From: Bacteriovoracaceae bacterium
Lineage (GTDB): Bacteria; Bdellovibrionota; Bacteriovoracia; Bacteriovoracales; Bacteriovoracaceae
Direction: 5' to 3'
Length of the DNA: 45,030 bases
NCBI GenBank assembly: GCA_016786485.1
Contig: JAEUWD010000053.1
Span: 1 to 45,030, forward strand
Under the pieces are notes generated by a model. It searched no databases, was not told where the DNA came from, and worked only from the letters and a program-made list of their open reading frames with translations. The position numbers and the translations under genes were made by a program. Positions 16,555 through 35,573 of the stretch are shown one piece after another; position 1 is the stretch's first letter; every line of letters begins with the position of its first letter.

Positions 16555-16585
16555 CTGTCCCTCCTAGACGTTCTGCGACTGAGAT

Positions 16586-16635
16586 GACTTTAATACAACA
16601 GATTAAAGTCAAGGCCTCCAGAAAGGACCGGCCTT
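16586..16635 (-). promoter_or_regulatory. Two adjacent inverted repeats in the flgE leader
   Basis: The first (16586-16610) is a perfect 9-bp repeat GACTTTAAT-N7-ATTAAAGTC. The second (16611-16635) is AAGGCC-N13-GGCCTT with an inner TCC/GGA pairing. Both lie between the preceding gene and flgE and could fold in the transcript. No T-run follows the GC-rich stem, so a full terminator is unlikely; attenuation, mRNA processing or stabilisation of the highly expressed flgE message is possible. Confidence 0.45.
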
Positions 16636-16651
16636 ATACTCAGGTTAAATT

Positions 16652-17059
16652 TTAATTCACAAACACAGTTGAATCGATATTAGTAAAGACGTTGTCGCTC
16701 ATCTTATCCTTGTCGATTGCTGTGATTATTTTTCCTTTGTTAACATCCACGATGTAAGCTGCATTACTCGTAATAACGAGTGACTCTTTACTTCCCTTTT
16801 GTTGCAACTTTTCCACCGCTTGTTTTAATTTAATAAACTCATTCGAGTCTAAACTTAAATTTCTCTCTTCCATACGTTTTGCTGCGTGTTTAGAAAAACT
16901 TAATTCACTATCCGTTTTATTATCAACGTGCTTTTCAAATAATTCTTTGAACTCAGACTTCTGAGAGTTTTTTAATTGATCAAGTTTGCTAACGCGGTTT
17001 TGTTGCGAAGGCAATTTACTGATCTGAGGAATAAGATTGTCATCAATTCGTTTTGTCAT
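16652..17059 (-). CDS. Flagellar operon protein (TIGR02530-like)
   Basis: A 135-residue soluble protein between flgD and flgE, the place where Bacillus-type flagellar operons carry the small TIGR02530 protein. The core SFSKHAAKRMEERNLSL followed by LKQAVEKLQQKGSKESLVI and YIVDVNKGKIITAID matches that family's pattern. The molecular function is not established; a role linked to hook assembly is inferred from position. It starts 3 nt after the flgD stop. Confidence 0.82.
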   Translation of the reverse strand: MTKRIDDNLIPQISKLPSQQNRVSKLDQLKNSQKSEFKELFEKHVDNKTDSELSFSKHAAKRMEERNLSLDSNEFIKLKQAVEKLQQKGSKESLVITSNAAYIVDVNKGKIITAIDKDKMSDNVFTNIDSTVFVN

Positions 17060-17062
17060 CTC

Positions 17063-18046
17063 TTACTCATCATAAACTGAAGTTTCTGCACTTTCTAGGG
17101 GTGCATTATTTTTATAGGCATTAATTGCCTGCATTCTTGGAGCATTATTACTTGCACTTGGTTCAATCGCGTTCGTACCACCCGCAGCTTCAACTGCCGC
17201 AGCGATTTCTTCTGGTGATGAAGCCGTTGGTTCCGGTTGCAATGCTGTTTTTTCGACGTGGGGCATGTGGAAACTATCAATATCGCGTAACGATGTTTTC
17301 TTACCATTAACGACAAACATCATTTCGCCACCTTCAAAGAAAATCGATTCGACGATACCTTCGTTTTTCGTTTGAACGTTGAGCTTGCCGCCAGTTTTAT
17401 CCCAGGCCATAACCGCCACTTGATATTCGCCGGCTTTTTCTGGACGACCGGCCAAATCATATCCATCCCATGATGACTTATGTTGACCACTATATAATTT
17501 CTCTTTCCAGTCTTCGTGTACAATATTACCCTTAGCATCCAAAAGACGAACCACCACTTTTTCTGCATCTGATGGAAGTTGAAAATAGAATTCTGCTTTT
17601 TCGCCTTGGCCTTTGTATTGAACGGTATTTCCAGTGGTAACGACTTTTTTACCAAGAAAACTTGCTCCGTAAAATTTATCTTCAACCGCAACGTTAGAAT
17701 TCATCTTATCAAATTTCGAGTTCATGTTAGCTAACTGCTCTAACTGTGCAAATTGCGCTAACTCGCCTGAGAACTTGCTTTGATCCATTGGGTTCATCGG
17801 ATCTTGGTGTTTTAACTGATGAGAAAGCAATTTTAAAAATTCGTCTTTCCCCATCTGATTGTGAGGGCCTTCTTTGATGATTGATTTTTCTCGGAAGCCC
17901 GTTAAGTTATTAACTAATTTATTATCGTAACTTTTATTTTGATCAACAGCGGCAGTTGGATCTTGTTTTTCTGGACGTGCTCCGCCCTTTCTTACATTTT
18001 GCAATTGTGATTGTTGCTCAGTCGGAGCGCGACCGATCATTGGCAT
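17063..18046 (-). CDS. flgD: Flagellar hook-capping scaffold FlgD
   Basis: A 327-residue protein that caps the growing hook and directs FlgE assembly. The conserved N-terminal motif is clear (MGKDEFLKLLSHQLKHQDPMNP, then QFAQLEQLANMN), followed by the FlgD Ig-like domain (VRLLDAKGNIVHEDW, WDGYDLAGRPEKAGEY). It is longer than the usual 220-240 residues owing to an unstructured N-terminus and an Ala/Pro/Asn-rich C-terminal tail after about residue 260. Its ATG overlaps the fliK stop by one base. Confidence 0.93.
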   Translation of the reverse strand: MPMIGRAPTEQQSQLQNVRKGGARPEKQDPTAAVDQNKSYDNKLVNNLTGFREKSIIKEGPHNQMGKDEFLKLLSHQLKHQDPMNPMDQSKFSGELAQFAQLEQLANMNSKFDKMNSNVAVEDKFYGASFLGKKVVTTGNTVQYKGQGEKAEFYFQLPSDAEKVVVRLLDAKGNIVHEDWKEKLYSGQHKSSWDGYDLAGRPEKAGEYQVAVMAWDKTGGKLNVQTKNEGIVESIFFEGGEMMFVVNGKKTSLRDIDSFHMPHVEKTALQPEPTASSPEEIAAAVEAAGGTNAIEPSASNNAPRMQAINAYKNNAPLESAETSVYDE

Positions 18047-19416
18047 TACGCTACTTCCTGTTGTCTTTTATAGCTCGCCCATAATTCTTGGCGACGGTGA
18101 GATTCGTGTTTACGTTGACCGTCCTGAGAAGAAAATTGTTGTGATGAGCTTTGTCTACCATGTTCAGATGTTGCGCCGTCTTCACTATGTTTAGAGAAAC
18201 TTGAATGAGATTCGAGTTTAATATCTGCAACTTTTAAACCATTGCTATTTAAAGTTTGGAAAAGCTCTTGTTGATTTTGCGAGAAAAAGTTTCGAGCTTC
18301 ATTATTTGAAGTCTGGATCGAAATATTTAAAGTGTTGTTATCATTTCTTTCAACATGAATACCAACGTTACCTAATTCTTGGTGATTAAATTTTAAATCA
18401 ATGGTTGGTCTAGCTGCCATATGATTTTGCTGAATATAATCTGAAATTTTATTAATTGATTCAGTTGAATTTGAAACGTCCATGCTACTTAAATCTAAAA
18501 CTTTTACTGGTGTCGCAGCACTAGTTCCATGTTTTAACTCACTGACCACTGGAGCGAAAACAAATGAATTATCACTCATTTCTGGCGTTAAAGCAGGATT
18601 CATCGAAGAAATGGCTTCACTTTCTTTTGTGATTTTTAAATCACGTTCTGGTCTTAATTCAAGCATCGGTTTTTCATTAAAGTCTTGGTAAGACTTTAAT
18701 GATTGGGCCGTTGCAGACACTTTATTAGCTGAAGCATTTGATAATAACTTTTGGATATCGGCTTGAGCATTCGCCATTTCATTCAATTCTAACGCTTGAG
18801 ACTCTGGTTGATAAAAGTCACGCGCTTCCTTAACTTTAGCAGTGCTAAACATTGAACGATATTCTATAGGTTGGCTATTTTTATAAAATGTTTCTTTTTC
18901 TGGAGCTGGAGTAGCTTTCTGAATTAAGGACTCAATATCAAATTTCTGAACTGGTTCGGAAGCTTCATTATTTAATGCTATAACATTATGGTCTTGTGGA
19001 ATCTGCACCGCTGGTTGCTTCACGAACAGACGATCAAGTTCTGCTGAAGAATTTTTAGCTTTGCGATAATCATGCTCAACCGATTGTTTAGCATCAGTCA
19101 GAATATCATTAAGTGAGCGAATTTTATTTTGCTCACTTAATTCTTTTTTGATTGGATGTTCATTTTTTGCAAGTAACTCGAGATTTACGTTTTGATTGAT
19201 AAGTTCTTCGCTTACGACTGGTTTTGCGACTGCTGTTCCTGGGATTTCAGAAGCTGCGTCTTCCGCTTGCGCTAAATTGACTTCGCCACTTAGTAATTCA
19301 GCGAAATTGATCGGTTCACCAGTTCCAGTTGAAACATTTACGAACGGAGACGAAATCTTTTTCGCTGCGTTTGCTTGTGAAGCATGCTGAATGTTTTTTT
19401 GCGGTAATACTTTCAT
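18046..19416 (-). CDS. fliK: Flagellar hook-length control protein FliK
   Basis: A 456-residue protein with a long low-complexity, disordered N-terminal region (ruler part) and a compact C-terminal Flg_hook domain at about 335-410 (PTIDLKFNHQELGNVGIHVE, FQTLNSNGLKVADIKLE), which in FliK proteins switches export specificity by acting on FlhB. The extreme C-terminus is Ser/Gln/His-rich. Position between the motE-like gene and flgD supports the call, since FliK N-termini are poorly conserved. Confidence 0.9.
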   Translation of the reverse strand: MKVLPQKNIQHASQANAAKKISSPFVNVSTGTGEPINFAELLSGEVNLAQAEDAASEIPGTAVAKPVVSEELINQNVNLELLAKNEHPIKKELSEQNKIRSLNDILTDAKQSVEHDYRKAKNSSAELDRLFVKQPAVQIPQDHNVIALNNEASEPVQKFDIESLIQKATPAPEKETFYKNSQPIEYRSMFSTAKVKEARDFYQPESQALELNEMANAQADIQKLLSNASANKVSATAQSLKSYQDFNEKPMLELRPERDLKITKESEAISSMNPALTPEMSDNSFVFAPVVSELKHGTSAATPVKVLDLSSMDVSNSTESINKISDYIQQNHMAARPTIDLKFNHQELGNVGIHVERNDNNTLNISIQTSNNEARNFFSQNQQELFQTLNSNGLKVADIKLESHSSFSKHSEDGATSEHGRQSSSQQFSSQDGQRKHESHRRQELWASYKRQQEVA

Positions 19417-19440
19417 AATATTAAGACACCCTCAGTCTCT

Positions 19441-19989
19441 CTATCTTTTCATATCTAGGTACTGTTTTTGAAGTCGGGCAGATATTTCCTTGTCCATCAG
19501 GTTAAATATCTTAGAAGCCTTCTCCGAATCTAGTTCGGCCAGTATCTTAACCGAGATTTCAGAATCCTGAACTGATAGTAATTCCGCAGCTTTAGCCGGC
19601 TTCATGCCTGAAACAACACTTACTAACTGACGAATTCTCTCTGCCTTCTTTTTTTCGTTTTGATCAATACATCCAATGAAATTCATCTGCTTCTTATCAA
19701 AGTCTTTAATCTTTTGATCTAAATCTTTAGAAGTTAAACCCATTTGCTCTTCGCGTACTTTTAATTCATTTTCACGAATTTTAAGTTCTGCTTCTTTTGC
19801 GACTAATTCTTTTGTTAAGTCAGTCACACTCTTCTTTTTAATATCATCTATTTTTTTAGTTACTTCTTCTTTAACCTTTTCTACAAAATCCGCTTCGGTA
19901 TACTTCAGTGTTTGTGCTGGAGTTGTCGCCGTTGGTGTGGCGGTATTTGCGAAAGTTAAAAGTGTCATCATCTTTAGCAGTAATATCAT
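19441..19989 (-). CDS. MotE-like flagellar protein with MgtE-N-type domain
   Basis: A 182-residue protein. The N-terminus is hydrophobic (MILLLKMMTLLTFA, a signal or anchor), followed by an Ala/Thr-rich stretch, a charged coiled coil (about 45-100), and a C-terminal domain resembling the MgtE N-terminal superhelical domain (SGMKPAKAAELLS, KILAELDSEKASKIFNLMD). This is the MotE/YlxF layout found between fliJ and fliK in many operons, proposed to chaperone stator or FliG-related assembly; the exact role here is inferred. Confidence 0.82.
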   Translation of the reverse strand: MILLLKMMTLLTFANTATPTATTPAQTLKYTEADFVEKVKEEVTKKIDDIKKKSVTDLTKELVAKEAELKIRENELKVREEQMGLTSKDLDQKIKDFDKKQMNFIGCIDQNEKKKAERIRQLVSVVSGMKPAKAAELLSVQDSEISVKILAELDSEKASKIFNLMDKEISARLQKQYLDMKR

Positions 19990-20445
19990 TTATAGCTCCT
20001 TGCTTTTTTTATGGTGATGCCAAATATTCACAAGCTCTTCTCGTGCCATATCATCTTTTTTCATCATTGCGTGTTTAAAAGCTTTTTGTTCTTTTTCTTT
20101 AAGCTTTGTCATAACTTTAACATCTGCTCTAAGCATAATGAGTTCAGCTTGCTTTTCCTGTAATTCAATTTTTTTTCTTTCGATTTCTTTTTTAAGCAAC
20201 ACGATCTTGGCTTCCTTACCGCGCACTAAGGTCGGAATAAATTGGGTCTCACGACCCGCCATTCCTCGTTCCAACATCTTTCTTTGAGCAATATAGGCTT
20301 CGTTAATTTCGTTTTTCTCGCGTTCAATTTGACTTTCACAGGCTGCAATATGCTTTTGAATTTTACCCATTTCTATTTTGCACTTATCTTCTTTGAACTC
20401 GCGTAACTTTAAAAGTGCTTCTAGTTTAAATTTGAACTTTTTCAT
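19990..20445 (-). CDS. fliJ: Flagellar export protein FliJ
   Basis: A 151-residue, almost wholly alpha-helical coiled-coil protein starting MKKFKFKLEALLKLREFKE, the typical FliJ opening (F-x-F-x-L-x-x-L-L-x-x-R). FliJ sits in the centre of the FliI hexamer and couples the ATPase to the export gate. It follows fliI by 4 nt and abuts the motE-like gene by one base. Confidence 0.9.
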   Translation of the reverse strand: MKKFKFKLEALLKLREFKEDKCKIEMGKIQKHIAACESQIEREKNEINEAYIAQRKMLERGMAGRETQFIPTLVRGKEAKIVLLKKEIERKKIELQEKQAELIMLRADVKVMTKLKEKEQKAFKHAMMKKDDMAREELVNIWHHHKKSKEL

Positions 20446-20449
20446 TTAT

Positions 20450-21841
20450 TTAAACCCTAGATATATTTAAGTTTCGTTTTGGTTGTACCGGCTCTTCAGT
20501 GACGGCTTTCTCTGCTTTACGAGCGATCTCGATCATATAATCATATAGATCCTCAATTATCGCGGATTCTTCCACATCTTGCTTAAGTAGAATCTCAAGC
20601 TCGTCAATAACGGCGATAGCCTTATCAACTTTAGGATTAGTTCCTTTTACATAAGCTCCTACGTTAATCAAATCTTCTGTCTCACGATAAGAAGCTAAAA
20701 GATCACGCAAGTGTGAAGCTACAATACGATGTTCGCGTGTTACAACTTTGGTCATAACCCGAGAAATTGAAGAAAGAACATCAATCGCTGGATAATGATT
20801 TCTGGCTGCTAATTCACGACTCAAAATAATATGACCATCTGAAATAGAACGAACACTGTCAGCGATCGGTTCATCCATATCGCCACCTTCAACAAGTACT
20901 GTATAAATACCAGTAATACTTCCGGCATCGGTCTTTGTTCCAGCACGCTCCATTAATTTTGGAAGTTTAGCAAAAACGCTTGGGCCATATCCTTTTTGAC
21001 CAGGAGGTTCACCTGAACTCATCCCAATTTCACGATTGGCCATAGCGAAACGAGTAATCGAATCCATCATTAGCATGACATCATTTTTTTGATCACGAAA
21101 ATATTCTGCAATCGTTGTCGCTGCATAAGCTGCTTTTACCCTAATAAGTGGGGATGAATCAGAAGTTGCGACGACAATAACTGATTTCTTTAAACCCTCA
21201 GGGCCTAAATCACTTTCAATGAATTCCCGAACCTCACGACCCCGTTCACCGATGAGCGCAATCACGTTAACTCCAGCATTCGAATTTTTAGCCATCATGC
21301 CCATCAACACGGACTTACCAACACCCGAGCCGGCCATGATCGCGACACGTTGACCTTTACCTAAAGTCATAAAACAATTAATTGCTTTAATACCAGTATC
21401 AAAGGGAGTTCGAATCGGTGGGCGTTCGAGGGGGTTAATGGGTTTACCAAAAATCGAACGATGTTCAGTCTCTTCCGTCATTTCGATTGGGCCTTTACCA
21501 TCAATAGGCTTACCATTGAAATCTACCACACGACCTAACATCGCTGGTGAAATATAAATTTGGCTATGATTTTCTTTAAGATAAATACGAGTTTGTGAAT
21601 TAATACCAACCACTTCATCATACGGCATAACTAAACAGCAATTTTTTTCAATAGAAACAACTTCACCTGGATGTTGTTTACCATCCTCAGTTACAAAATC
21701 CACGTTACTACCAATCACCGCGCGAGGAAACGAGGCTTCGTAAACCATGCCACGGCTAGAAATAATTTTTCCGATATTCAAATAAGGAGTACGTGAATCA
21801 AACTCATCGAAGAGTTTACGAAAATCTAAATTATGACTCAT
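20450..21841 (-). CDS. fliI: Flagellum-specific export ATPase FliI
   Basis: A 463-residue cytoplasmic ATPase of the F1-beta family that energises early steps of type III export. Walker A GSGVGKS (171-177), GERGREV (198-204), Walker B region VMLMMDSITRFAMA, then the FliI-typical SGEPPGQKGYGPSVF segment. I chose the ATG at 21841: AGAGGA is 8 nt upstream, while the in-frame GTG at 21847 is too close to it. The start overlaps the end of fliH by 11 nt, so the regulator FliH and the ATPase are translationally linked. Confidence 0.97.
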   Translation of the reverse strand: MSHNLDFRKLFDEFDSRTPYLNIGKIISSRGMVYEASFPRAVIGSNVDFVTEDGKQHPGEVVSIEKNCCLVMPYDEVVGINSQTRIYLKENHSQIYISPAMLGRVVDFNGKPIDGKGPIEMTEETEHRSIFGKPINPLERPPIRTPFDTGIKAINCFMTLGKGQRVAIMAGSGVGKSVLMGMMAKNSNAGVNVIALIGERGREVREFIESDLGPEGLKKSVIVVATSDSSPLIRVKAAYAATTIAEYFRDQKNDVMLMMDSITRFAMANREIGMSSGEPPGQKGYGPSVFAKLPKLMERAGTKTDAGSITGIYTVLVEGGDMDEPIADSVRSISDGHIILSRELAARNHYPAIDVLSSISRVMTKVVTREHRIVASHLRDLLASYRETEDLINVGAYVKGTNPKVDKAIAVIDELEILLKQDVEESAIIEDLYDYMIEIARKAEKAVTEEPVQPKRNLNISRV

Positions 21842-22670
21842 TACCACTATCCTCTTTGATTTCTTTTGGAGGTAGTCCTACGGTTTTAAAAACTTCATCA
21901 ATTGCGTTTAATTGTGCGCGAACACTTCCATCTAAAATACTACTTTGTGATTCGAGAATAATTCCTGGCATATTCATTTCATGCTCAAGCTCCACACGCA
22001 CATTAGTCAATTGTCCAAGTTTTTTCTCAACCTGTTCAATGACCTGTGGCATACGTGCAAAACTATTTTTGCTCACACGAATAAGTAGATTATCTTTCAC
22101 ACCCATTTCGAGAATTAATTTCTCAAGTAGTGCACGCAAATAATCTTGATTTTCAACTTCTTTTAAAATAACCCATTTTGAAAGAGCACGAATCATTTCA
22201 TAAGCATTATCAATGTTCTGTTGCAGGACCTTTTTCTTATCTTCTTGTAACTCTTCGATAATTTTCTGAATTTGATCGATTTGTTTTTCGAACGCCTGTG
22301 AAGCTTCTTGATAAGCTTGATCATGACCTTTTTTCAAACCTTCTTCGTAGGCACGCTTGTAAGTATCATCCTGGACTGAGCGTAACTTCTTATCAACTTC
22401 CGAATTGATATTTCGTTGGAAATCTTCAATCTCTTGTTTTTTTAAGCCACGGTATTCAGAAACAACTTTATCTACTTTGAAAGCATTTTTTTGAGCAGCC
22501 TCACGTTCTTTACGAATAACATTAGCACTTGGTTTTTCACGGTGAAGAATCTCACCACCCACTTCTTGTAGTTGATATGGTTCAATTTTAGTTTGAAATC
22601 CAGTATTTCCACCTAGCGTATCAAAGGTATACTCTTCAACACTGTAATACTGGCTCGATTTCAAAGTCAT
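21831..22670 (-). CDS. fliH: Flagellar assembly protein FliH
   Basis: A 279-residue protein. A variable N-terminus is followed by a long coiled coil (about 65-155, including the YEEGLKKGHDQAYQEA-type repeat usual in FliH) and a C-terminal domain resembling the V-ATPase E/FliH stator fold (LILEMGVKDNLLIRVSKNSF, LEHEMNMPGIILESQSSILDGSV). It binds and regulates FliI and docks it at the C-ring. Position between fliG and fliI supports this. Confidence 0.92.
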   Translation of the reverse strand: MTLKSSQYYSVEEYTFDTLGGNTGFQTKIEPYQLQEVGGEILHREKPSANVIRKEREAAQKNAFKVDKVVSEYRGLKKQEIEDFQRNINSEVDKKLRSVQDDTYKRAYEEGLKKGHDQAYQEASQAFEKQIDQIQKIIEELQEDKKKVLQQNIDNAYEMIRALSKWVILKEVENQDYLRALLEKLILEMGVKDNLLIRVSKNSFARMPQVIEQVEKKLGQLTNVRVELEHEMNMPGIILESQSSILDGSVRAQLNAIDEVFKTVGLPPKEIKEDSGNES

Positions 22671-22693
22671 TATCTACTCCTACAAATAGTTGC

Positions 22694-23731
22694 TTATACC
22701 AGCGCGTCGCCTTCGCCACCGCGAGCAATAATCGCTTTGCCTTTCGCTTCAAGATCTTTAAGAATCTGAACGATTTCCTGTTGTGCTTTTTCAACATCAG
22801 AAAGTTTAGTAGGCCCAAGTGCATCCAAGTCTTCCTGTAATAAGCCAGCCGCACGATTCGACATGTTCTTGAACAATTTCGCACGAACATCTTCTGGTGC
22901 TGTCTTAAGAGCGATAACCAATTTTTGGTTATCAACCACTTTAAGCATTTCTTGGGTACCTTTATCATCCACAAAGATAATATCTTCGAAGACAAACATG
23001 AGTTTTCTGATCTCTTCGGCCAACTCAGGGTCTTTTTCTTCAACTCTGGCCATAACGTTCTTCTCAGTATTCTTATCCATCATGTTCATCATATCAGCGA
23101 TTGGATCAACACCACCCAACTGTTGTGTATCGATTGAACCAAGGGTCGAAAGCTCTGTTTTCAAGACGTCATCTAATTGAGCAATCAATTCTGGCGATAC
23201 GAAGTCGAGGTTAGCAATTCTTAGTACAACTTCCGCTTGTAAACCTTCTGGTAACTTGCGAAGAACATCAACTTTTCTTTCAGTGCTTAAATGAGCAATG
23301 ATAAGTGCAATCGTTTGCGGATGTTCGTTGATTAAGAAATTCGCTAGTGTTCTTGTATCGACTAGCTCTAAAGATTCAAGTGTATTTGAAGATCCCACTT
23401 CAACAATCTGACCAAGTAATTGCTTGGCACGCTCTTCACCAAGCGTTCCAAGGATAAAGTCTTTCCCTTTATTGTCAGAGAAGAGTAAGTTGGCATCTTC
23501 ATTAATGTATGAATAAAACTCTTCCAAAACTTTTTTAACCATCCAAATCGGCGACTTAGTAATCGTCGACATGGCGTTAATCATCCGTTTAACATCGTTG
23601 TCTTTCATATGATCAAAGATCAACTTCGAAGTTTTAGCACCTAGCGAACTTAATAGGATTGCGGCCCTATCTTGCCCACTGAGTAGGGCATACTCGGTAT
23701 CGGGATCTGTTGGTTTTTCTTCTGCTGCCAC
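22694..23731 (-). CDS. fliG: Flagellar motor switch protein FliG
   Basis: A 345-residue C-ring protein that carries torque. All three domains are visible: N-terminal (LSGQDRAAILLSSLGAKTS), middle with the conserved NEHPQTIALI motif, and C-terminal with the charged torque helix (MFVFEDIIFVDDKGTQEML, ALKTAPEDVRAKLFKNMS). The start is GTG at 23731, with AAGGAG 6 nt upstream. It follows fliF by 22 nt, the usual pairing because FliG mounts on the FliF ring. Confidence 0.97.
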   Translation of the reverse strand: MAAEEKPTDPDTEYALLSGQDRAAILLSSLGAKTSKLIFDHMKDNDVKRMINAMSTITKSPIWMVKKVLEEFYSYINEDANLLFSDNKGKDFILGTLGEERAKQLLGQIVEVGSSNTLESLELVDTRTLANFLINEHPQTIALIIAHLSTERKVDVLRKLPEGLQAEVVLRIANLDFVSPELIAQLDDVLKTELSTLGSIDTQQLGGVDPIADMMNMMDKNTEKNVMARVEEKDPELAEEIRKLMFVFEDIIFVDDKGTQEMLKVVDNQKLVIALKTAPEDVRAKLFKNMSNRAAGLLQEDLDALGPTKLSDVEKAQQEIVQILKDLEAKGKAIIARGGEGDALV

Positions 23732-23753
23732 TCTTAGCTCCTTAAAAATATAA

Positions 23754-25442
23754 TTATGCTATCTGTTTATTCTCATCTACGGTGTGAATCATCTCATGCA
23801 TAACTTGTGCTGCCTTCTGAGGATTCTGTTCAATCAAGTTAATGATTTTCTCTCTTAATAAGTTACCCTCAATCTTCTCAGGGTTAATTTTCTCTTCAAT
23901 CGTAGGAAGAGCATCTTCTAAACCTGGTAACTTCTGACCAGCTTGGATACGCTCCAACTCTTCAATTGTTTTCGGCAAGAAGTCATCAATCGTTTCAACC
24001 GTGTTTTCAGTTACCCACTGGATGAATGGACGAACCACGACGAAGAAGAATAAAGTGATGATGATACCGATCATTAAGTACTTGGTTAAATTCTTAATGA
24101 TTTCTCTATTCTCACGACGCTCTAGCATGGCTTCGATTGAAGCTAAATCTTCTTCCGCAAATTCCATATTCTTAATCGTTAATTGATCACCACGACCAGC
24201 AACGATACCGATTGATGAAGCGACAATCTGACGGAAGTTTTCTAATTGCTCTTCGCTCCACGCTTCATACTTCATGACCACTTCACCATTATCACCGATA
24301 ACTGGCGCGCCTTTAGCGTCTAGTACTGGTACTTTCTTACCATCCACCATAACCGCCACACTTAAGCTTTGTAATTCCGCCGTTGGCTTCTTGGCCTTGG
24401 TTACTTTTGATGGAACTCCGAAGTTTCTTGTCACGAGTGATTTATCTAAATCATTACGTGTTTCAGGAATACCTGGTTGTGGATTTTCGCCAGGAAGGTT
24501 ACTACGTGCTCCTGGAATGCCTTGTGGAGAAGGGCGTGAACCAACTAATTTCTCCTGATTTGATACCTCTGAAATAACAGCTGTATTCTCGTTATCGTAA
24601 GTTGTCTGTGTTTCAACTTTTTCAGTGAAATCGAGTTTGGCCGAAACTTTTGCAATAACTTTTCCCTCGCCAACTACGCGAGATAATATTTCTTCAATTT
24701 GTTGCTCATATTTAAGATTTACTTTTGACTCTAGTGCAATTCGATTTGCTGTTTCAGCTGTCATCGAATCCCCTAAGTTTTCAGATAATTTTTTACCACG
24801 TGAATTAATAATCACGACATGCTCAGAACGCATTCTTTCAATCGCTGAAGAAACAAGAGACTGAATCCCTTTAATTTCTTCTGTCGTTAGAGTTACCCCT
24901 GGGGATAATTCAAGGACAACCGAAGCACTTGGATCTTTCATTTCAGAAACGAAAGGACTTGATTCAGGAACTGATAAGTGAACTCTCGCTCGCTCAACAC
25001 CTTTAATATGTTTTATCGTCTTGATTAACTCGCCTTCAAGCGCACGTTGACGATTAATTTTTTGTACGAAGCTGGTAGTACCAAAACTTTGTTTATCAAA
25101 AACCTCATAACCAACAGTTGATGAAAAGTTAACACCTTTTTTAGCAATTTCTAAACGCCATTTTTCTTTTTGATCTTCTGGAACGAGAATGGTCTTTCCT
25201 TCCTCTCCCATTTGATAATTAATTTTGGCATCTTCAAGCATTTGAGCAATCATGGCCGAATCTTCTTTAGTAAGATCTGTATAAAGGACTTTATACTGTG
25301 TCTTTCCCGCCCACATAATAATCCCAATCATTAAACTGGCGGTAATCCCTGCAAGGGCAATCAAACCAATTCTTCTGACGAAATCTAAGGAGCTAAAAAA
25401 GTCCACAAAGTTCGTTACTATCTGTCTAAAAAAATTTTCCAA
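23754..25442 (-). CDS. fliF: Flagellar MS-ring protein FliF
   Basis: A 562-residue inner-membrane ring protein. First membrane helix at about 24-45, ring-building motifs in the periplasm (KVLYTDLTKEDSAMIAQML, FVQKINRQRALEGELIKTI, RARVHLSVPESSPF), second membrane helix near 440-462 and a C-terminal cytoplasmic FliG-binding segment ending the protein. The start codon is TTG (25440-25442) with AAGGAGG 5 nt before it; no nearby in-frame ATG fits as well. Confidence 0.97.
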   Translation of the reverse strand: MENFFRQIVTNFVDFFSSLDFVRRIGLIALAGITASLMIGIIMWAGKTQYKVLYTDLTKEDSAMIAQMLEDAKINYQMGEEGKTILVPEDQKEKWRLEIAKKGVNFSSTVGYEVFDKQSFGTTSFVQKINRQRALEGELIKTIKHIKGVERARVHLSVPESSPFVSEMKDPSASVVLELSPGVTLTTEEIKGIQSLVSSAIERMRSEHVVIINSRGKKLSENLGDSMTAETANRIALESKVNLKYEQQIEEILSRVVGEGKVIAKVSAKLDFTEKVETQTTYDNENTAVISEVSNQEKLVGSRPSPQGIPGARSNLPGENPQPGIPETRNDLDKSLVTRNFGVPSKVTKAKKPTAELQSLSVAVMVDGKKVPVLDAKGAPVIGDNGEVVMKYEAWSEEQLENFRQIVASSIGIVAGRGDQLTIKNMEFAEEDLASIEAMLERRENREIIKNLTKYLMIGIIITLFFFVVVRPFIQWVTENTVETIDDFLPKTIEELERIQAGQKLPGLEDALPTIEEKINPEKIEGNLLREKIINLIEQNPQKAAQVMHEMIHTVDENKQIA

Positions 25443-25474
25443 GTTGCCTCCTTAAAGCATCTTTAAAACATCAA

Positions 25475-25825
25475 TCAAACTTGCATTCGCATAATTTCGC
25501 GATAAGCATCAATAACTTTCATTCTGATTTGGTTCATCGCTTTGAACGCAATATCTGCTTTCTCTACCGCAATCATTGTTTCATGCAGATTTGTCGACTG
25601 ACCGCTGGCCAACTTTTGCATCGCCACTTCTGCGTCTTTCTGCAAATCATTCACTTTACCCAATGATTGAGTGAGAAAATCACCAAAACTTTTATTCTCG
25701 GCTTCACCAACACCGTCTAACGAAGTCGGCAAACTAAATTCAGTATTTAAGTCCGCACTTTTGGTCCAACCTTTTGAGTCGTAACCGCGAAGTGATTGAT
25801 TTAAATCTCCAACATTCTTAATCAT
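25475..25825 (-). CDS. fliE: Flagellar hook-basal body adaptor FliE
   Basis: A 116-residue protein connecting the MS ring to the rod. The conserved C-terminal half is clear: SFGDFLTQSLGKVNDLQKDAE, LHETMIAVEKADIAFKAM, QIRMKVIDAYREIMRMQV. It lies directly after flgC (10 nt) and before fliF, the standard rod gene order. Confidence 0.95.
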   Translation of the reverse strand: MIKNVGDLNQSLRGYDSKGWTKSADLNTEFSLPTSLDGVGEAENKSFGDFLTQSLGKVNDLQKDAEVAMQKLASGQSTNLHETMIAVEKADIAFKAMNQIRMKVIDAYREIMRMQV

Positions 25826-25835
25826 AAATTAACTC

Positions 25836-26273
25836 CTATCTTCCAATTTCCAGAGCTTTCATTGCCATACTTTTCGCTGTATTAACTGCTGAAATATTGG
25901 CTTCATAACTTCGATTGGCATTAATCATGTTTGCTGTTTCCCGCATAATGTTGATGTCAGGATAAGCAACATAACCATCTTTGTTCGCATCAGGGTGATG
26001 TGGTTCATATTTTAGAACTGGAGGTTTATTAGTTGAGATCACTTCTGTGGCGTGTACCGCTTGAGCATTCTCATCTAAAGTACCTTCTAAAATTTCTGAA
26101 AAACTTTCACGTGCTGGCTCTGAACCAAAAACAACCTCTTTAGGACGATAAGGACCACCTTCAGCAGTTCGAGTAGTTTGAGCGTTTGCGATATTCGATG
26201 AAATAGCTTCCATACGTTTTCTCTGTGCCGCCAACCCACTTGCACTAATTTTTAAACTGGTGAGTATGTCCAT
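25836..26273 (-). CDS. flgC: Proximal rod protein FlgC
   Basis: A 145-residue rod component. The N-terminal axial motif SLKISASGLAAQRKRMEAISSN with IANAQTTRTAEGGPYRPKEV is characteristic of FlgC, and the C-terminus (DINIMRETANMINANRSYEAN, AKSMAMKALEIGR) forms the paired helix. It follows flgB by 19 nt. Confidence 0.96.
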   Translation of the reverse strand: MDILTSLKISASGLAAQRKRMEAISSNIANAQTTRTAEGGPYRPKEVVFGSEPARESFSEILEGTLDENAQAVHATEVISTNKPPVLKYEPHHPDANKDGYVAYPDINIMRETANMINANRSYEANISAVNTAKSMAMKALEIGR

Positions 26274-26292: not shown

Positions 26293-26700
26293 TTACTTCT
26301 CTGAAGAAATGGCATATTTCATCATGCCCATTTTCTTATTCACTAATTGCACCAAAGCATCGTAAAGGATCTTGTTCTCTGCAATCTGTGCCATTTCCGC
26401 TTCAACATCCACGGTATTTCCGTTCTCACTCACAACACCATTTGGGTCGTTGTAAATTTCTGGTTGAAGATTATTGAAACCACCGTTACCAACATCAAAA
26501 TGTTTGCTATCAGTCGTTTGCATCTTCATTTTACCGTCGACATCGATCGCTCTGGCCAAGGCCGATTCGAAATCAACTTTTTTTGCTTTGTAATCAGGTG
26601 TGTCTGCATTCGCAACGTTACTGGCCATAATTTCTTGCTTCATCTGTCTGAAGTTAAGAGCATTTGCCATCGCCTGAAGTGTTTTATCATTTATTTCCAT
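26293..26700 (-). CDS. flgB: Proximal rod protein FlgB
   Basis: A 135-residue rod component, shorter at the N-terminus than FlgC. Motifs: ALNFRQMKQEIMASNVANADTPDYKAK at the N-terminus and VDVEAEMAQIAENKILYDALVQL at the C-terminus. First structural flagellar gene in the operon; it starts 8 nt after the NtrC-like regulator, with AGGAAG as ribosome site. Confidence 0.96.
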   Translation of the reverse strand: MEINDKTLQAMANALNFRQMKQEIMASNVANADTPDYKAKKVDFESALARAIDVDGKMKMQTTDSKHFDVGNGGFNNLQPEIYNDPNGVVSENGNTVDVEAEMAQIAENKILYDALVQLVNKKMGMMKYAISSEK

Positions 26701-26708
26701 GCAACTTC

Positions 26709-27647
26709 CTATCGTAAGTTTACAAAGTAGCTGTTTCCATCATGTCTATATTCATTGATTTTGTTTCTTAGAGTTCTGATAGACACACCTAAAATTTTCG
26801 CTGCTTGCGTTCTGTTTTCAGAAGTATGAACAAGAGCTTTTTTAATAAGTAGTTTTTCAGCTTCTTTAAGTGACATTAGACGAATTCCATCTTCACTTTC
26901 TTCGTATGAAGCACTTTCAACACGTTTTTCACCAAATTCAATCGCGCTTGCATCAACCACTGACTCTTCCGCTGTAAGAGCAGCTGATTCAATAACTGAA
27001 CGAAGTTCGCTAATGTTATTTGCCCAATAGTGTGAAGCAAGTTTATCGATAGCTTCATTTGAGAAGTTAAGAGTTTCAATTCCGTTTTCACCAGCAAATT
27101 TGCTTAAATAGTAATTAGCTAGTTCATAAATATCACCAGTTCTCTCTCTTAATGGAGACAAGCTAATTTGTGTGTTAGCAAAGTACATATAAAGTGAACG
27201 GTGGAATCTTCCTGCACCAACATATTTTGATAAATTTTTGGTTGTTGTCGCAAGAATTCTGATGTCGAGGTCGTAATCAGTTAATTCTTGAATGATAGTA
27301 ATCAAACGTTTCTGGAAAACTTCATCAATCCCATCAATGTTTGCGAAAACGACTGTACCTGAATTGGAACGCTCAAGAACACCGCGAACAAACTTTCCAT
27401 CGGCTTCACGATAACCCAGGATTTCGTTCTCAACTTTCTTTGGATCAGAAGAACAGTCAACAACGTTGAATGGTCCATTTCGTCTCGAAGATGCATTGTG
27501 AATAAAACGACAAAGAGTGCGTTTGCCGGTACCGTGCTCACCTACCACCAGTGCTGGGGTTTTAGTTACTGAAACATTGTCAGCAAACTCTAGAGCTTTT
27601 TTGAACTTTGGACTTGAACCTACTAATTCGAAACCTGAAGTTAACAT
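26709..27647 (-). CDS. Divergent NtrC-like AAA+/Fis regulator of the flagellar operon
   Basis: A 312-residue protein: AAA+ domain (about 8-235) and Fis-type helix-turn-helix (about 258-302; TQAAKILGVSIRTLRNKINEY), with no receiver domain. Walker A is GEHGTGKR (36-43). The stretch that normally holds the sigma54-binding GAFTGA loop is replaced by GYREADGKFVRG (79-89), and Walker B reads TVVFANID (98-105), lacking the usual Asp-Glu. It should still bind DNA but probably cannot hydrolyse ATP or open a sigma54 promoter in the normal way. An ideal AGGAGG site precedes the ATG. Co-transcribed with flgB; a flagellar regulatory role is inferred from position. Confidence 0.88.
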   Translation of the reverse strand: MLTSGFELVGSSPKFKKALEFADNVSVTKTPALVVGEHGTGKRTLCRFIHNASSRRNGPFNVVDCSSDPKKVENEILGYREADGKFVRGVLERSNSGTVVFANIDGIDEVFQKRLITIIQELTDYDLDIRILATTTKNLSKYVGAGRFHRSLYMYFANTQISLSPLRERTGDIYELANYYLSKFAGENGIETLNFSNEAIDKLASHYWANNISELRSVIESAALTAEESVVDASAIEFGEKRVESASYEESEDGIRLMSLKEAEKLLIKKALVHTSENRTQAAKILGVSIRTLRNKINEYRHDGNSYFVNLR

Positions 27648-27667: not shown

Positions 27668-30370
27668 TTAAAGTTGTACTCCCAATTTAATTCCAGACAA
27701 TTCCGTCTTCGCCATCTCTCTTAGATAGCTCGGAACGGCCTCATCCTTAATTAGAGAATTTAAAATCTCACTTCCTTGTTCGACTTTTAAATTCTTTATT
27801 AATGATTTTCCATATAAATATCTTACTCGTGATTGATAACTTGAAGTTTTAAACTTGTCCAAAAATTCAGCTGCTCTTATTTCAACGACCGCTTGATCGG
27901 TATTTTTTTGAGAAGTCATTGTTTCAAGCGATAGGTACATAATTCTTTCTTGAGCGTTTAATAGCGACTGACTCTTTAATGACTGAGAAGCTAAATCTTT
28001 CAAAATTGCATCTGCCGTCTTTAACATTCTGTCCACTTGATTACTGTTGCCGAGTGACTCAATGTAGTTGCTTAATAATTCGCCTAATTGGTCTGAGGTC
28101 AGTCGGTTGTTTTTGTTTTGATTAATAAGATACGACTCAAAGTTATTGGCCGCATTCGCGTACTCTTTTTTATTGTAACTAACAACGCCCTGGAAGTAAT
28201 CAAAATTTATCTCACTTCTGTCACCCTTGGAAATTTTACCTAGGAACTGCTCAGCATTGCTCCAAAGTCTTTTCGCGATCATGTTTTCAAGCACTAACTC
28301 GTTAATCATGTTCTCTAATTTAATGTTTTTATCGCGTGCAACCCAAATCGGAAAAGTTTTAATATTCACTTCGCTAATTGTTTTAAACGATTCGATTGAA
28401 CGTTCAAAGCTGTTCTGGAGGCCTAACTTGGTGTAAGCATTGGCCACAATGTAATGAATTTGAGGATTGATAGTAGTCTTATTATCAAACTTATCTTTAT
28501 ATGTTTCCCATAACTTAACCGCTTTTGAATAGTTCTCTTCTTCAAAAGATTCTTTAATTAAACCAAAAATAATTTCAGAACCATCTTGTTCAAAAACTTT
28601 ACGGTGCAAAGGAGTGAATGAATCAAGCGGGATACTTGATAAATAAGTCAGTGCTTTCTTATACTCTCCAGAGTTAATGAAAAGTCTTAAACGAACTTGC
28701 CACAATAACTTCTTGAGATCACGATCAATAACATTCTTTTCATCATCAGCAGCTTCAAAGAAAACTTGCTGCTCTAAATCTTCTGCAGTTAATTCTTTTT
28801 TGCGGGCCAATCTGACACCAAGGTAACGAAGTTTGGCTTCGAAACGTGCTTTAGGATTGGTTGAGCGATCTAAAGCATTACGGTAAAGCATGATGGTTTT
28901 GTCCACCTTCTCTTCCGTTAAATCATAACTTAAAGCAATTCTTAAACGCGCAAAAGGTGAAACGTTGGCTAAGTGTGAGTAATCTTTTAAAAAAGTATCG
29001 AATAACTCAATCGCCTGAGGATATTTTGACTCTCTAAAATAAGCTTCCGCTGTATTAAATAAAATTGATGGATGAACAGGGCTGATAAGCGACTTCTTGT
29101 TTTTCTCATACAGGCTTATGACTTCCGCATTATCATTGCGTATAAGCAGTGCGTACGAGTTATAAGCATGACCAATTTGTTTAGGTAGAATTTTTACAAT
29201 GTACTGATCTTCTAAGAACTCATTGATTTTTTCGTTCTGCTTTAACATCGCGAGCGTGTGAAGGATGACACGTGAACTATGGACAGTCATTTCTTTATCA
29301 AACTGAGCTTTTGAATCGATAAATAACTTACGAGCAAGTTCCAAAGACTTAATATAGTCACCACGATTAAGTGAAGACTGAATCATATAACGATTGATAG
29401 CTCTTCTTAGTTCATAATTAGTCGAGCTCTCAAGAATTCCATTAAGAATGTTGTCAGCCGCTGCATTAACGCCAGTGTTTTTATCGATAAGGTTATTCTT
29501 TAAAAGAGCGTTGGCCTTAATGTACTGATTCTTTTCGTAGTTACTATCGATTTTGTACTTATCTTCATAAAGCTTTAATGATTTTGCTAGCATTCCCCAA
29601 TTTTCTTTACGGTAAAGATTAATACTTAGCTGCATGTGCGCTTCTTTTTCATCTTTTTCGTAATCCGAGTCCGTAATTGGAAAGAAATATTCTGGAATCT
29701 TACTATTTAAATTAATGTCTTCATCCATACTTGGAATCAACGGAGTATAATCCCAAATAAAAGTACCACCATATCTGAAATCTCTATAACCTGGATTCTT
29801 TTCTCTAATCTCTTTATTTTCTGAAGTAATCGGATTGGCCACATCTTCTAAATTCATGACTGGCTTCTTCGCTACTTTCTTCTTGGCCTTGCTAGTATCC
29901 GCAGTTACGATGACGGGCTTCGCTGTTTGAACTTCTTTTACTAGTTCAATTTGCTGCTGTGTTTTTAATTCCTCGTTAACCCAGAAATCTACGACGTATT
30001 TTTGGTCATCATTTTTATAGAAAGTAAAAAATTCAATAGCGCTATCGGCTAATGTGACCTCTACCGTCGCAGGTTCTGACGGAAAGTTATCTCTCTTATA
30101 TTGAATGTCCTTAATATATTGATTATTTTTTGAAGCTTTTGTGAGATCTTCAGCAATCTTATTATATAACTCGATGTTTAATGTCTGGATGAGCAATTTA
30201 TTATTATCATTACGAATAACAATTTGCTCTTTTGGTAATACAACGTTCCAACGTAAGTGCGTTTGAAATTGTTCCTGCAATAAAACTTGTGACTGCGCGT
30301 TCAGGCAAAAAAGCCCTAGAAGAAAAATTGCCGGAGTCAATAATTTGAATGCAACAAAGCGCATTGTCAT
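27668..30370 (-). CDS. Exported TPR-repeat protein heading the flagellar operon
   Basis: A 900-residue protein. I chose the ATG at 30370: AGGAAG lies 4-5 nt upstream and the next 25 residues (FKLLTPAIFLLGLFCLNAQS) form a signal peptide; the longer frame from 30415 lacks this. After a beta-rich N-terminal domain (about 30-150, somewhat AMIN-like) and a basic linker, the rest is long arrays of helical TPR-type repeats (for example SILFNTAEAYFRESKYPQAI, FDYFQGVVSYNKKEYANAAN). Probably a periplasmic scaffold. It precedes the regulator by 20 nt and is the first gene in this strand's run, suggesting a link to flagellar assembly, but that is inference. Confidence 0.75.
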   Translation of the reverse strand: MTMRFVAFKLLTPAIFLLGLFCLNAQSQVLLQEQFQTHLRWNVVLPKEQIVIRNDNNKLLIQTLNIELYNKIAEDLTKASKNNQYIKDIQYKRDNFPSEPATVEVTLADSAIEFFTFYKNDDQKYVVDFWVNEELKTQQQIELVKEVQTAKPVIVTADTSKAKKKVAKKPVMNLEDVANPITSENKEIREKNPGYRDFRYGGTFIWDYTPLIPSMDEDINLNSKIPEYFFPITDSDYEKDEKEAHMQLSINLYRKENWGMLAKSLKLYEDKYKIDSNYEKNQYIKANALLKNNLIDKNTGVNAAADNILNGILESSTNYELRRAINRYMIQSSLNRGDYIKSLELARKLFIDSKAQFDKEMTVHSSRVILHTLAMLKQNEKINEFLEDQYIVKILPKQIGHAYNSYALLIRNDNAEVISLYEKNKKSLISPVHPSILFNTAEAYFRESKYPQAIELFDTFLKDYSHLANVSPFARLRIALSYDLTEEKVDKTIMLYRNALDRSTNPKARFEAKLRYLGVRLARKKELTAEDLEQQVFFEAADDEKNVIDRDLKKLLWQVRLRLFINSGEYKKALTYLSSIPLDSFTPLHRKVFEQDGSEIIFGLIKESFEEENYSKAVKLWETYKDKFDNKTTINPQIHYIVANAYTKLGLQNSFERSIESFKTISEVNIKTFPIWVARDKNIKLENMINELVLENMIAKRLWSNAEQFLGKISKGDRSEINFDYFQGVVSYNKKEYANAANNFESYLINQNKNNRLTSDQLGELLSNYIESLGNSNQVDRMLKTADAILKDLASQSLKSQSLLNAQERIMYLSLETMTSQKNTDQAVVEIRAAEFLDKFKTSSYQSRVRYLYGKSLIKNLKVEQGSEILNSLIKDEAVPSYLREMAKTELSGIKLGVQL

Positions 30371-30574
30371 GAAACTTCCTGTTTCAAATTCAATGAAAAG
30401 AAGATCTATCCTCATGATAAATCCGTTTCCTACAGATAGTTTACATTGAATTGGATTTTAAAAAAGGAATTTTTTTCTGCTAGGCACTTTTTTTCTAGTC
30501 ATTTCTTTGACGAAAAAATCTTAACACAGATTTACAATGACTTAGTTAATAGTGTTATTTTAAAATGATAGAAG

Positions 30575-33409: not shown

Positions 33410-33970
33410 ATGATATTGTTGTTATTGTTTCAACTATTTACCGCTACACTTTTTGCTCAAGAAGACTATCACTTCAAGCCAGCTGGTTGCGAGGACGAAG
33501 TTGATGTCAAAATTTTAAAAAATCCTATCGTAAAAAATGATTTAGTTATCACGCAAGTTCTCTCTGGTACTTATGAAGGACCAGCGGATGAGAAGGGTTT
33601 AGGCGGATTATTTACCACGCTTGGTGGTAATTTGGTGGCAGAAAGTGACGAAGATCAACCTTTTAAACCAAATACCCATGGAAAATTTTTTAAAATTTCC
33701 GTTAAAAATTTACACGAGGGCTTTTCTGAATTCAAAACCGAAGCTTATATTCACGTCGACGAATTTAAAAAGGTTCACGGTTGTCTCGGAGATATTTATA
33801 TTCCAGAAATGATCGCAACACTTCTCAAGGGTGGCCCCATGGTGGGTGAAGCTGACAATCAGAATGGAAATTTTGAAAATGAAGCTCGCAAAAGTAGAAT
33901 GTTAGACTCACAAAACAAGAGAGAGCCCGCTAGTAATGTTATCAAAAAAACCAAAGATGATAGTCATTAA
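33410..33970 (+). CDS. Exported protein at the end of the Mla operon
   Basis: A 186-residue protein with a short signal peptide (ILLLLFQLFTATLFA, cleavage before QEDYHF). The mature part has a beta-rich region (CEDEVDVKILKNPIVKNDLVITQVLSG; Cys residues in GCEDE and HGCLG could pair) and a polar, basic C-terminal tail (ENEARKSRMLDSQNKREP). No family recognised. The gene starts 35 nt after mlaD and ends on a stop shared with the convergent response regulator gene. It might be a periplasmic partner of the transporter; that is only suggested by position. Confidence 0.65.
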   Translation: MILLLLFQLFTATLFAQEDYHFKPAGCEDEVDVKILKNPIVKNDLVITQVLSGTYEGPADEKGLGGLFTTLGGNLVAESDEDQPFKPNTHGKFFKISVKNLHEGFSEFKTEAYIHVDEFKKVHGCLGDIYIPEMIATLLKGGPMVGEADNQNGNFENEARKSRMLDSQNKREPASNVIKKTKDDSH

Positions 33971-35496
33971 GCTTCGAGAGATTTCTTCTTGAGCTTCTCA
34001 ATCAATGTTGTACGATTCATCGATAATAATCTTGAAGCCTGATTTTTGTTACCATTGGTGCGGCCTAAGGCTTGCATGATAAGCGAGTCCTCGATGTCTG
34101 AAATGACTTTCTTCAGATCAATTCCATACTCTGGTAATTCAAAAATGTTTTTATAAAGTGACGACGCCAAAGGATTATGGCGATAGATTTTTGCTGGCAG
34201 ATCTTCTGGTAGAATTTTGTTTCCGCCTCTTAAAATAACTAAACGCTCGATAACGTTTTCTAATTCACGAACGTTACCTGGCCAATCATATGAAAGCAAA
34301 AGCTCAAGCGCTTGGTCTGAAATTTCAATTTCATTACGTTTATCCGCACTTACGAAACGCTCAAGGAAATAACCAATCAATAATGGAATATCCTCTCTAC
34401 GCTCTTTTAAAGCCGGTAACTTAATTGGAATAACATTCAGGCGGTAGAATAAATCTTCACGAAACTTGCCTTCTTGAACGGCTTTATCTAAATCACGGTG
34501 AGTGGCCGCAATAATTCGCACATCCACATCCGTTGGAGTTGAACCACCCACAGGCTCCACTTGGCGACCTTGAATAACTCTTAATAACTTCACTTGAAGT
34601 ATCAGTGGCATATCTCCAATTTCATCTAAGAAAATGGAACCGTTATTGGCCACTTCAAAGCGACCTTTGCGAGTTGAAATAGCACCTGTGAAGGCACCTT
34701 TTATATGTCCGAATAGTTCACTTTCTAATAATTCACCCGGAATCGCACCACAATTCACAGATACTTTTGGAAACTTTCTACGTTCTGAAAGTTTATGAAT
34801 AGCATTCGCCACTAATTCTTTACCGGTACCAGAAGGTCCTGTAATGAGAATAGTTGAATCGGATTGAGAAACTTTTTTAATGCGCTCAAAAACTTCACGC
34901 ATAATTTTTGAACGGCCAATCATGCCACAGAAAAGGTCATTTTCATTCGGTCGTTCAATCGTCAATTTATTCGAAACTAAATTACTTAAACCTTTCACTG
35001 CTGCTGTTTCAATTTTTTGCTGATGATTAAATTTATAATTAAATTTATTTTCAATAGCAGCTACTAGCAGGTTATATAGATTTTCTAAATCAAAAGGCTT
35101 CGTTAAATAGTGATAAACACCTTTCTTGGTAGCAGCGATGGCAGTTTCAATACTCGCAAAACCAGTCATCACAATTGAAATAAAGTTATAATTTTTTTCT
35201 TTTAAAATATCGACTAATAACAGACCATCTGAACCTTGATCTAAGCTAATATCAGTCACCAAGCAGAATGGTTCATTATTAGCTTTAAGTGCTAGTGCTT
35301 CAAGACAATCAGATACTTTTGAGAACAAAGTAATTTCAGTATTTAATTTTTTTGCTAGATATTTTTTTAGGCTTAATCCAAGGACTTTATCATCTTCAAC
35401 AATGATAATTTGCGGGCATTGTTCGAGCTCACTTACATCATCCAACTCGCCGGCAACTTCACTATAATTTGACTGCAAGTACTTCAAATCATCCAT
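33967..35496 (-). CDS. NtrC-family sigma54-dependent response regulator
   Basis: A 509-residue protein. Receiver domain (about 29-145): acidic pocket Glu34-Asp35-Asp36, phospho-acceptor Asp82, Lys133. AAA+ domain: Walker A GPSGTGKE (220-227), sigma54-contact loop GAFTGA (267-272), Walker B SIFLDE (287-292). Fis-type helix-turn-helix at the C-terminus (about 480-505). This is the complete, canonical activator of sigma54 promoters controlled by a histidine kinase; no kinase gene is next to it. I prefer the ATG at 35496 over the GTG at 35511, whose G-rich site touches the codon. Convergent with the Mla operon. Confidence 0.93.
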   Translation of the reverse strand: MDDLKYLQSNYSEVAGELDDVSELEQCPQIIIVEDDKVLGLSLKKYLAKKLNTEITLFSKVSDCLEALALKANNEPFCLVTDISLDQGSDGLLLVDILKEKNYNFISIVMTGFASIETAIAATKKGVYHYLTKPFDLENLYNLLVAAIENKFNYKFNHQQKIETAAVKGLSNLVSNKLTIERPNENDLFCGMIGRSKIMREVFERIKKVSQSDSTILITGPSGTGKELVANAIHKLSERRKFPKVSVNCGAIPGELLESELFGHIKGAFTGAISTRKGRFEVANNGSIFLDEIGDMPLILQVKLLRVIQGRQVEPVGGSTPTDVDVRIIAATHRDLDKAVQEGKFREDLFYRLNVIPIKLPALKERREDIPLLIGYFLERFVSADKRNEIEISDQALELLLSYDWPGNVRELENVIERLVILRGGNKILPEDLPAKIYRHNPLASSLYKNIFELPEYGIDLKKVISDIEDSLIMQALGRTNGNKNQASRLLSMNRTTLIEKLKKKSLEA

Positions 35497-35573
35497 ACTA
35501 CAAACCCCCACCCCTTTAGCTTAACGGATGTATTTCGGAAGTGTCAATTTTTAGACAGGGTGAAAATATTGCT

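Follow-up and report, generated by a model that had tools for sequence, protein, structure and literature searches.

A sigma54-activator-type protein without activator motifs, and a changed promoter, at the flgB operon of Bacteriovoracaceae

Bacteriovoracaceae are mostly predatory bacteria. Here, we focus on a stretch of 45,030 nucleotides from one of them (assembly GCA_016786485.1, contig JAEUWD010000053.1, positions 1 to 45,030; the window), and in particular on a gene directly upstream of the flagellar gene flgB. Its product has the fold of a sigma54-dependent enhancer-binding protein (EBP) and lacks the GAFTGA motif, the Walker B acids and the arginine fingers, and it is termed here the pseudo-EBP. 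Read from its sequence, it cannot serve alone as a conventional sigma54 activator. The losses are conserved throughout the family, where the operon has no recognizable sigma54 promoter and carries a sigma70-like one. We consider the chances evenly balanced that the pseudo-EBP regulates its own operon by binding DNA independently of sigma54, comparable in this to NtrC of Rhodobacter capsulatus or to VpsR. Regulators without GAFTGA are already known; what is new is a complete and repeated loss at one locus together with a promoter switch. No description of this gene was met in the literature searched, which mostly did not reach subscription papers.

The protein and its motifs

26,709–27,647, reverse strand: pseudo-EBP, a sigma54-activator-type AAA+ protein (open reading frame list, Pfam, family alignment, AlphaFold2 model)

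The reading frame runs from ATG to TAG and encodes 312 amino acids. An initial annotation of this DNA, made from the letters alone, had placed the gene between a TPR gene and flgB with AGGAGG upstream, and both points are confirmed: the TPR gene ends 20 bp before it, flgB begins 8 bp after it, and AGGAGG lies 5 bases 5′ of the start codon. Pfam matches Sigma54_activat (PF00158; 80 bits, versus 239 bits for the canonical NtrC of the window), AAA_lid_14 (PF25601) and HTH_8 (PF02954). The AAA+ sigma54-interaction domain, lid and Fis-type helix-turn-helix (HTH) of the EBP fold are therefore all present, and an AlphaFold2 model built on 47 sequences (pLDDT 85.8), in which the L1 segment forms a short strand pair, matches PspF (Z 27.3), FlrC (27.0), NtrC1 (27.0), FleQ (25.6) and VpsR (25.4). 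The model speaks for the fold and says nothing on activity.

On re-reading the sequence, GAFTGA is missing (the L1 segment is GYREADGKFVRG), Walker B is VVFANID without its acids, and Walker A is GEHGTGKR, all as first claimed. The original list of losses was correct and incomplete, since it overlooked the L2 (pre-sensor-1) loop, both arginine fingers and the sensor II arginine. L2 has 7 residues versus the usual 15, FHRSLYMYF stands where FREDLxYRL is expected, removing both fingers, and NNISEL stands where GNVREL is expected, removing the sensor II arginine. The Walker A lysine is retained, the C-terminus reads YFVNLR, and the Fis-type HTH is intact, as had been noted. L1 and L2 form the contacts to sigma54, and established roles are known for these loops, for Walker B and for the arginine fingers (PMC7175178), so the pseudo-EBP should be unable to drive sigma54 alone.

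A second EBP without GAFTGA is encoded in the same genome (L008; contig C20, 27,575–28,048; FGKNDKKGLLE). It has a GAF-like N-terminus and LILNEIS at Walker B, and keeps FREDLLYRL.

Conservation in the family and losses elsewhere

A close copy of the pseudo-EBP (E 1e-48 or better, including a few fragments or splits) is present in 120 of 129 Bacteriovoracaceae genomes, a count read from best E-values, paralogues being mixed into the automatic tally. The nine genomes that lack one are all less than 90% complete, and all 73 genomes at least 90% complete carry the gene at E below 1e-90. Motifs were counted in 86 aligned copies. None has GAFTGA, the Walker B D-E (mostly replaced by A-N) or the arginine fingers; the sensor II arginine is kept in two and replaced in 84. 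The Walker A lysine is found in all 86, followed in 85 by K or R rather than E, and throughout L1 has 9–10 residues (not 13) and L2 has 7 (not 15). Each of the 24 columns of the HTH, ENRTQAAKILGVSIRTLRNKINEY, is at least 90% conserved, and the motif is near-identical to that of the intact orthologues described below. Newly invariant residues have also appeared, among them R80, a DYD-D-R motif that replaces L2, and a KNLSK that follows this motif. Pairwise dN/dS lies between 0.02 and 0.12 (18 pairs, including members without a flagellum) with the AAA+ part constrained too, so the gene is, by its substitution pattern, under strong purifying selection and maintained rather than decaying. The initial annotation had held that it is not decaying, and had proposed a comparison of orthologues; dN/dS and the presence in all 73 near-complete genomes bear out the former, and the latter finds the loss conserved throughout the family. 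A sequencing error or local oddity is ruled out by 86 copies without GAFTGA, Walker B acids and fingers.

Other families of the Bdellovibrionota encode a protein of similar length directly 5′ of flgB-flgC-fliE-fliF-fliG, mostly after a TPR gene. Catalytic motifs are fully intact in 24 of 26 such outgroup orthologues at the flgB locus. All 26 have full-length L1 and L2 loops, both fingers and the sensor II arginine; Walker B D-E is present in 25 (D-D in the other), and G[AS]FTGA in 24, the exceptions being one GAFTNA and one GAFVGA. A second disarmed group (L259–L262, L270–L298), which we name Bdellovibrionaceae from its gene content and the large genus within it, shows a different pattern of loss: the L1 and L2 loops are truncated or missing, and Walker B is ED or worse. 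Most Bdellovibrio copies retain FRQDLFYKL and GNIREL, and the smallest version in the family (L262) has 257 amino acids. A third family (L264, L299) has lost GAFTGA and the Walker B aspartate. No EBP was found before flgB in L263 or L265–L268; in the family of L263 the gene is absent and the TPR gene directly precedes flgB. In a tree of FliF and FliG, which is independent of the trait (a quick search with SH-aLRT support only), each disarmed group stands separate among intact ones and three changes are needed. Because regain of GAFTGA is implausible, the activator motifs were probably lost at least three times, in Bacteriovoracaceae, Bdellovibrionaceae and the third family.

Five Bacteriovoracaceae genomes (G064–G068, 88–99% complete) have neither FlhA nor a full-length FliF, yet encode a pseudo-EBP with an intact HTH. 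Four of the five still have, before the gene, the tandem palindromes and −10 hexamer described in the next section, and a short FliF-like reading frame (PF01514) directly follows the pseudo-EBP in the two loci tested (L056:6955–8247 and L189:8095–9690). Since the gene is kept in these genomes, the pseudo-EBP appears to be useful without a flagellum, which weakens the earlier suggestion of a checkpoint restricted to flagella. In a separate observation, fliF of one genome (G123:C1:115165–116847) contains one in-frame TGA.

The operon promoter and its genomic context

The promoter of the operon lies upstream of the TPR gene, its first gene. In the window, the following elements are recognized there:

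30,438–30,443, reverse strand: sigma70-like −10 hexamer, TAAACT (aligned Bacteriovoracaceae promoters)
30,466–30,478, reverse strand: palindrome 2, AGAAAAAAATTCC, centred at about −41, where a −35 would be (promoter alignment)
30,483–30,496, reverse strand: palindrome 1, AGAAAAAAAGTGCC, lying 17 bp further upstream than palindrome 2, measured end to end (promoter alignment)
30,498–30,511, reverse strand: GTC-N8-GAC element, GTCAAAGAAATGAC (promoter scan)

Sigma54 elements (−24/−12) were sought in the stretch upstream of the TPR gene at a score of at least 21 of 26, which 1–3% of shuffled sequences reach. Such an element precedes the operon in 26 of 27 loci with an intact EBP (19 of 20 once repeats are removed), in all 24 Bdellovibrionaceae, in both loci of the GAFVGA family and in L263, which has no EBP gene. 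Among Bacteriovoracaceae it was found in none of 65 operon promoters at a score of at least 20, and in one locus of 67 when a wider stretch was scanned. A scan of the outgroups directly 5′ of the EBP gene had found no sigma54 site, because the site stands 5′ of the TPR gene, which was then unrecognized. A second element, GTCA-N5-TTGDC, is placed as an enhancer would be: it is present in 22 of 24 Bdellovibrionaceae, mostly 84–86 bp upstream of the −24 box, and in 16 of 20 intact loci (expected 0.05), mostly 74–110 bp upstream. Its persistence in L263, where the gene is missing, implies that some other EBP can make use of it in that lineage.

Most Bacteriovoracaceae loci have instead a TANAAT hexamer that follows two tandem palindromes (GGAAAAATTTGCC and AGAAAAATTTTCC) at 22 nt; in the alignment, 50 of 70 promoters have exactly this distance between palindrome 2 and the start of the hexamer. 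If the hexamer is set at −12, palindrome 2 is centred at about −41 and palindrome 1 at about −58, and there is no good −35. The tandem palindromes occur in 64 of 66 Bacteriovoracaceae promoters versus 1.5% of shuffled sequences, a count that is partly circular as the palindrome was derived from these promoters; the counts in intact loci (0 of 27) and in Bdellovibrionaceae promoters (18 of 24) are independent. Further upstream, 27 of 67 Bacteriovoracaceae promoters carry GTC-N8-GAC (expected 1.7), possibly a remnant of the GTCA-N5-TTGDC enhancer of other families.

The flagellar regulon as a whole has not left sigma54. RpoN is encoded in 117 of 125 Bacteriovoracaceae genomes, and a −24/−12 site stands 49–103 bp before the start of the rod operon (flgF) in 11 of 11 genomes (4 of 4 in Bacteriovoracaceae), nearly always as the sole strong site on its strand in 12 kb. 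Because this site persists, flgF must depend on an intact EBP. The nearest candidate for this active EBP, or for a partner of the pseudo-EBP, is encoded in the window:

33,967–35,511, reverse strand: canonical response-regulator EBP with intact GAFTGA and Walker B (motif reading, neighbourhoods)

It is the upstream neighbour of the TPR and pseudo-EBP genes in 32 of 60 testable Bacteriovoracaceae loci; Mla genes occupy this place in 23 more, and in two of these the response-regulator EBP is visible past the Mla genes, at the edge. No convincing sigma54 sites were found before flagellin genes in either Bacteriovoracaceae or the intact-EBP group, which makes that comparison uninformative. Inverted repeats common to the flgF upstream regions were not clearly above shuffles, and a CAC-N-GGG palindrome found there in the two nearest relatives was rejected when it failed to extend further. 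A GG-N-TTTTTGCC-like element lies 26–28 bp before the −24 box of flgF in all four Bacteriovoracaceae genomes (L360–L363) and at 40 bp in two Bdellovibrionaceae; singly it is not above shuffles, yet its position is fixed. Three genomes with an intact EBP (L331, L348, L350) have, close to their flagellin genes, a gene for a cytoplasmic TPR protein with a consensus sigma54 promoter.

The remaining genes of the operon are named from sequence homology, with synteny checked for the first five genes:

27,668–30,415, reverse strand: the gene that begins the operon, for a TPR protein carrying a signal peptide (Pfam, synteny, likeness to AMIN/TPR scaffolds)
26,293–26,700, reverse strand: flgB, which follows the pseudo-EBP gene after a gap of 8 bp (gene order in Bacteriovoracaceae loci)
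within 15,271–26,273, reverse strand: flgC, fliE, fliF, fliG, fliH, fliI and fliJ, then a MotE/FlgY-like gene, fliK, flgD, a small gene and flgE (homology)

The order TPR-pseudo-EBP-flgB-flgC-fliE-fliF-fliG is kept in nearly all Bacteriovoracaceae loci with flanks. By comparison with AMIN/TPR scaffold proteins (PMC13023049), the TPR protein is probably a periplasmic motor scaffold of the PflA/MotK type. Given its signal peptide and this likeness, no contact with a cytoplasmic regulator is expected, and they speak against the link with the pseudo-EBP proposed in the initial annotation; a physical association of the two was rejected on location. The MotE/FlgY-like gene (19,441–19,989) encodes an exported coiled-coil protein with weak MgtE_N and FliG_M matches, which may be a MotE/FlgY E-ring protein; a structural search found no relative of it in the PDB.

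Proposed role and alternatives

The ancestor of the pseudo-EBP was presumably a short sigma54 activator of about 320 amino acids, encoded at the head of the Bdellovibrionota flgB operon and corresponding to FlbD in position and likely in role. In Bacteriovoracaceae, the two loops that contact sigma54 were lost along with the residues for hydrolysis, leaving a folded AAA+ domain, the P-loop and an unchanged Fis-type HTH, and the operon promoter exchanged −24/−12 for a sigma70-like site with tandem palindromes in place of the −35. The pseudo-EBP would bind its own promoter region and control its own operon, more probably as an activator of class II type than as a repressor, and nucleotide binding without hydrolysis may act as a switch. 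The flgF operon still depends on sigma54 and must be opened by a different, intact EBP. Action at a sigma70 promoter is suggested by the changed operon promoter together with precedents, since sigma70 promoters are where three GAFTGA-less proteins act, namely R. capsulatus NtrC, Caulobacter NtrC and VpsR (PMC10274813). The TyrR/NtrC-like sigma70-type role was already among those first proposed and fits best, the operon's own sigma54 promoter being gone and a sigma70-like one in place; its binding and sign we infer.

Known systems offer partial parallels. FlbD of Caulobacter crescentus is likewise a flagellar EBP with a Fis-type HTH encoded with early flagellar genes, but its N-terminus is receiver-like, its GAFTGA is intact and it works as a sigma54 activator; in the FlbD equivalog NF050807 the pseudo-EBP scores 181.6 bits against a cut-off of 750 and has no N-terminal domain, which places it outside. 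As an EBP fold without GAFTGA, the pseudo-EBP resembles the sigma70-type regulators of that class. The NtrC proteins of R. capsulatus and Caulobacter share the L1 deletion and the link to sigma70 promoters, but they are response regulators of nitrogen genes, and the pseudo-EBP additionally lacks Walker B, fingers, sensor II and L2; Caulobacter NtrC requires Walker B, and R. capsulatus NtrC requires ATP binding (PMC10274813). VpsR of Vibrio cholerae has a similar GAFTGA-less fold and regulates sigma70 promoters, but is longer, with an N-terminal receiver-type domain absent from the pseudo-EBP, binds cyclic di-GMP and controls biofilm genes. FleQ of Pseudomonas shares the flagellar EBP fold and has both sigma70 and sigma54 roles, but retains its ATPase motifs and N-terminal domain. 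FleQ and FleT of Cereibacter sphaeroides are flagellar EBPs with divided labour; in the present case the DNA binder is the inactive one, and gene linkage with an intact EBP is what is known.

Several points weigh against regulation of the operon by the pseudo-EBP at a sigma70 promoter. Its binding there is deduced from sequence, the −10 was assigned by consensus alone, and the palindrome was defined after viewing the promoters in which it was then counted. The tandem palindromes are missing from loci whose intact orthologues have nearly the same HTH, so they may be bound by another protein; this mismatch is the main weakness, and the pseudo-EBP may instead recognize the GTC-type box, with the palindromes serving a different factor. 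Bdellovibrionaceae combine the palindromes (18 of 24) with a sigma54 promoter, and the whole AAA+ domain is conserved more strongly than a bare DNA-binder requires.

One alternative is a hetero-oligomer, in which the non-catalytic pseudo-EBP recognizes the enhancer and an intact EBP, such as that at 33,967–35,511, provides the ATPase and the sigma54 contact. The retained AAA+ fold and P-loop, the sigma54 promoter kept at flgF, the frequent adjacency of the response-regulator EBP and the persistence of both genes in flagellum-less relatives are consistent with it, as are two precedents: FleQ/FleT (PMC11999139) and the GAFTGA-less Caulobacter NtrC, of which DNA-binding mutants raise FlbD-dependent sigma54 genes (PMC12421884). 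We nevertheless regard this as unlikely. Missing fingers would disable the site of the adjacent subunit, the intact EBP already has its own HTH, the GTCA-type enhancer is found at none of four Bacteriovoracaceae flgF promoters, and the shrunken AAA+ part of Bdellovibrionaceae (as in L262) is a poor fit to a ring. The pseudo-EBP may also be an anti-activator of a partner AAA+ protein, as the initial annotation had suggested. A repressor or competitor that shuts the early operon, or blocks the active EBP at shared sites, seems rather improbable too. It would correspond to the negative half of FlbD, which represses Caulobacter fliF via ftr4 and activates later genes (PMC3930126); FlbD is the best NCBIfam match of the pseudo-EBP, whose HTH is conserved with the activation machinery gone, but a palindrome at about −41 without a good −35 is the layout of an activator site, not of an operator overlapping the −10. 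That the gene is a decaying relic of a sigma54 activator, as the lost motifs and the gene-less L263 lineage might suggest, is highly improbable: purifying selection across the family already contradicts it, as do the E-values in near-complete genomes, the new invariant residues and the good Shine–Dalgarno sequence.

Regulation at a sigma70 promoter forms part of a broader proposal, to which we give a little less than an even chance. In this proposal, activator and operon promoter left sigma54 together in Bacteriovoracaceae, so that a remodelling ATPase became a conventional sigma70-type regulator and sigma54 was retained for other flagellar operons; at least two further disarmings of this gene, one of them in Bdellovibrio, would have taken place independently in the phylum. 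Pseudo-EBP proteins are mislabelled where automatic annotation calls them 'sigma54-dependent regulator'. Sigma54 activators are tied to their promoters, and without the motor the promoter is dead. Here, at one locus in one lineage, motor, sigma54-contact loops and −24/−12 promoter are all gone, intact copies and promoters in other families preserve the picture before the change, and parallel losses exist in Bdellovibrio. With these side by side, a path by which evolution leads from sigma54 to sigma70 control can be tested directly, and the case bears on the timing of flagellum building in these predators.
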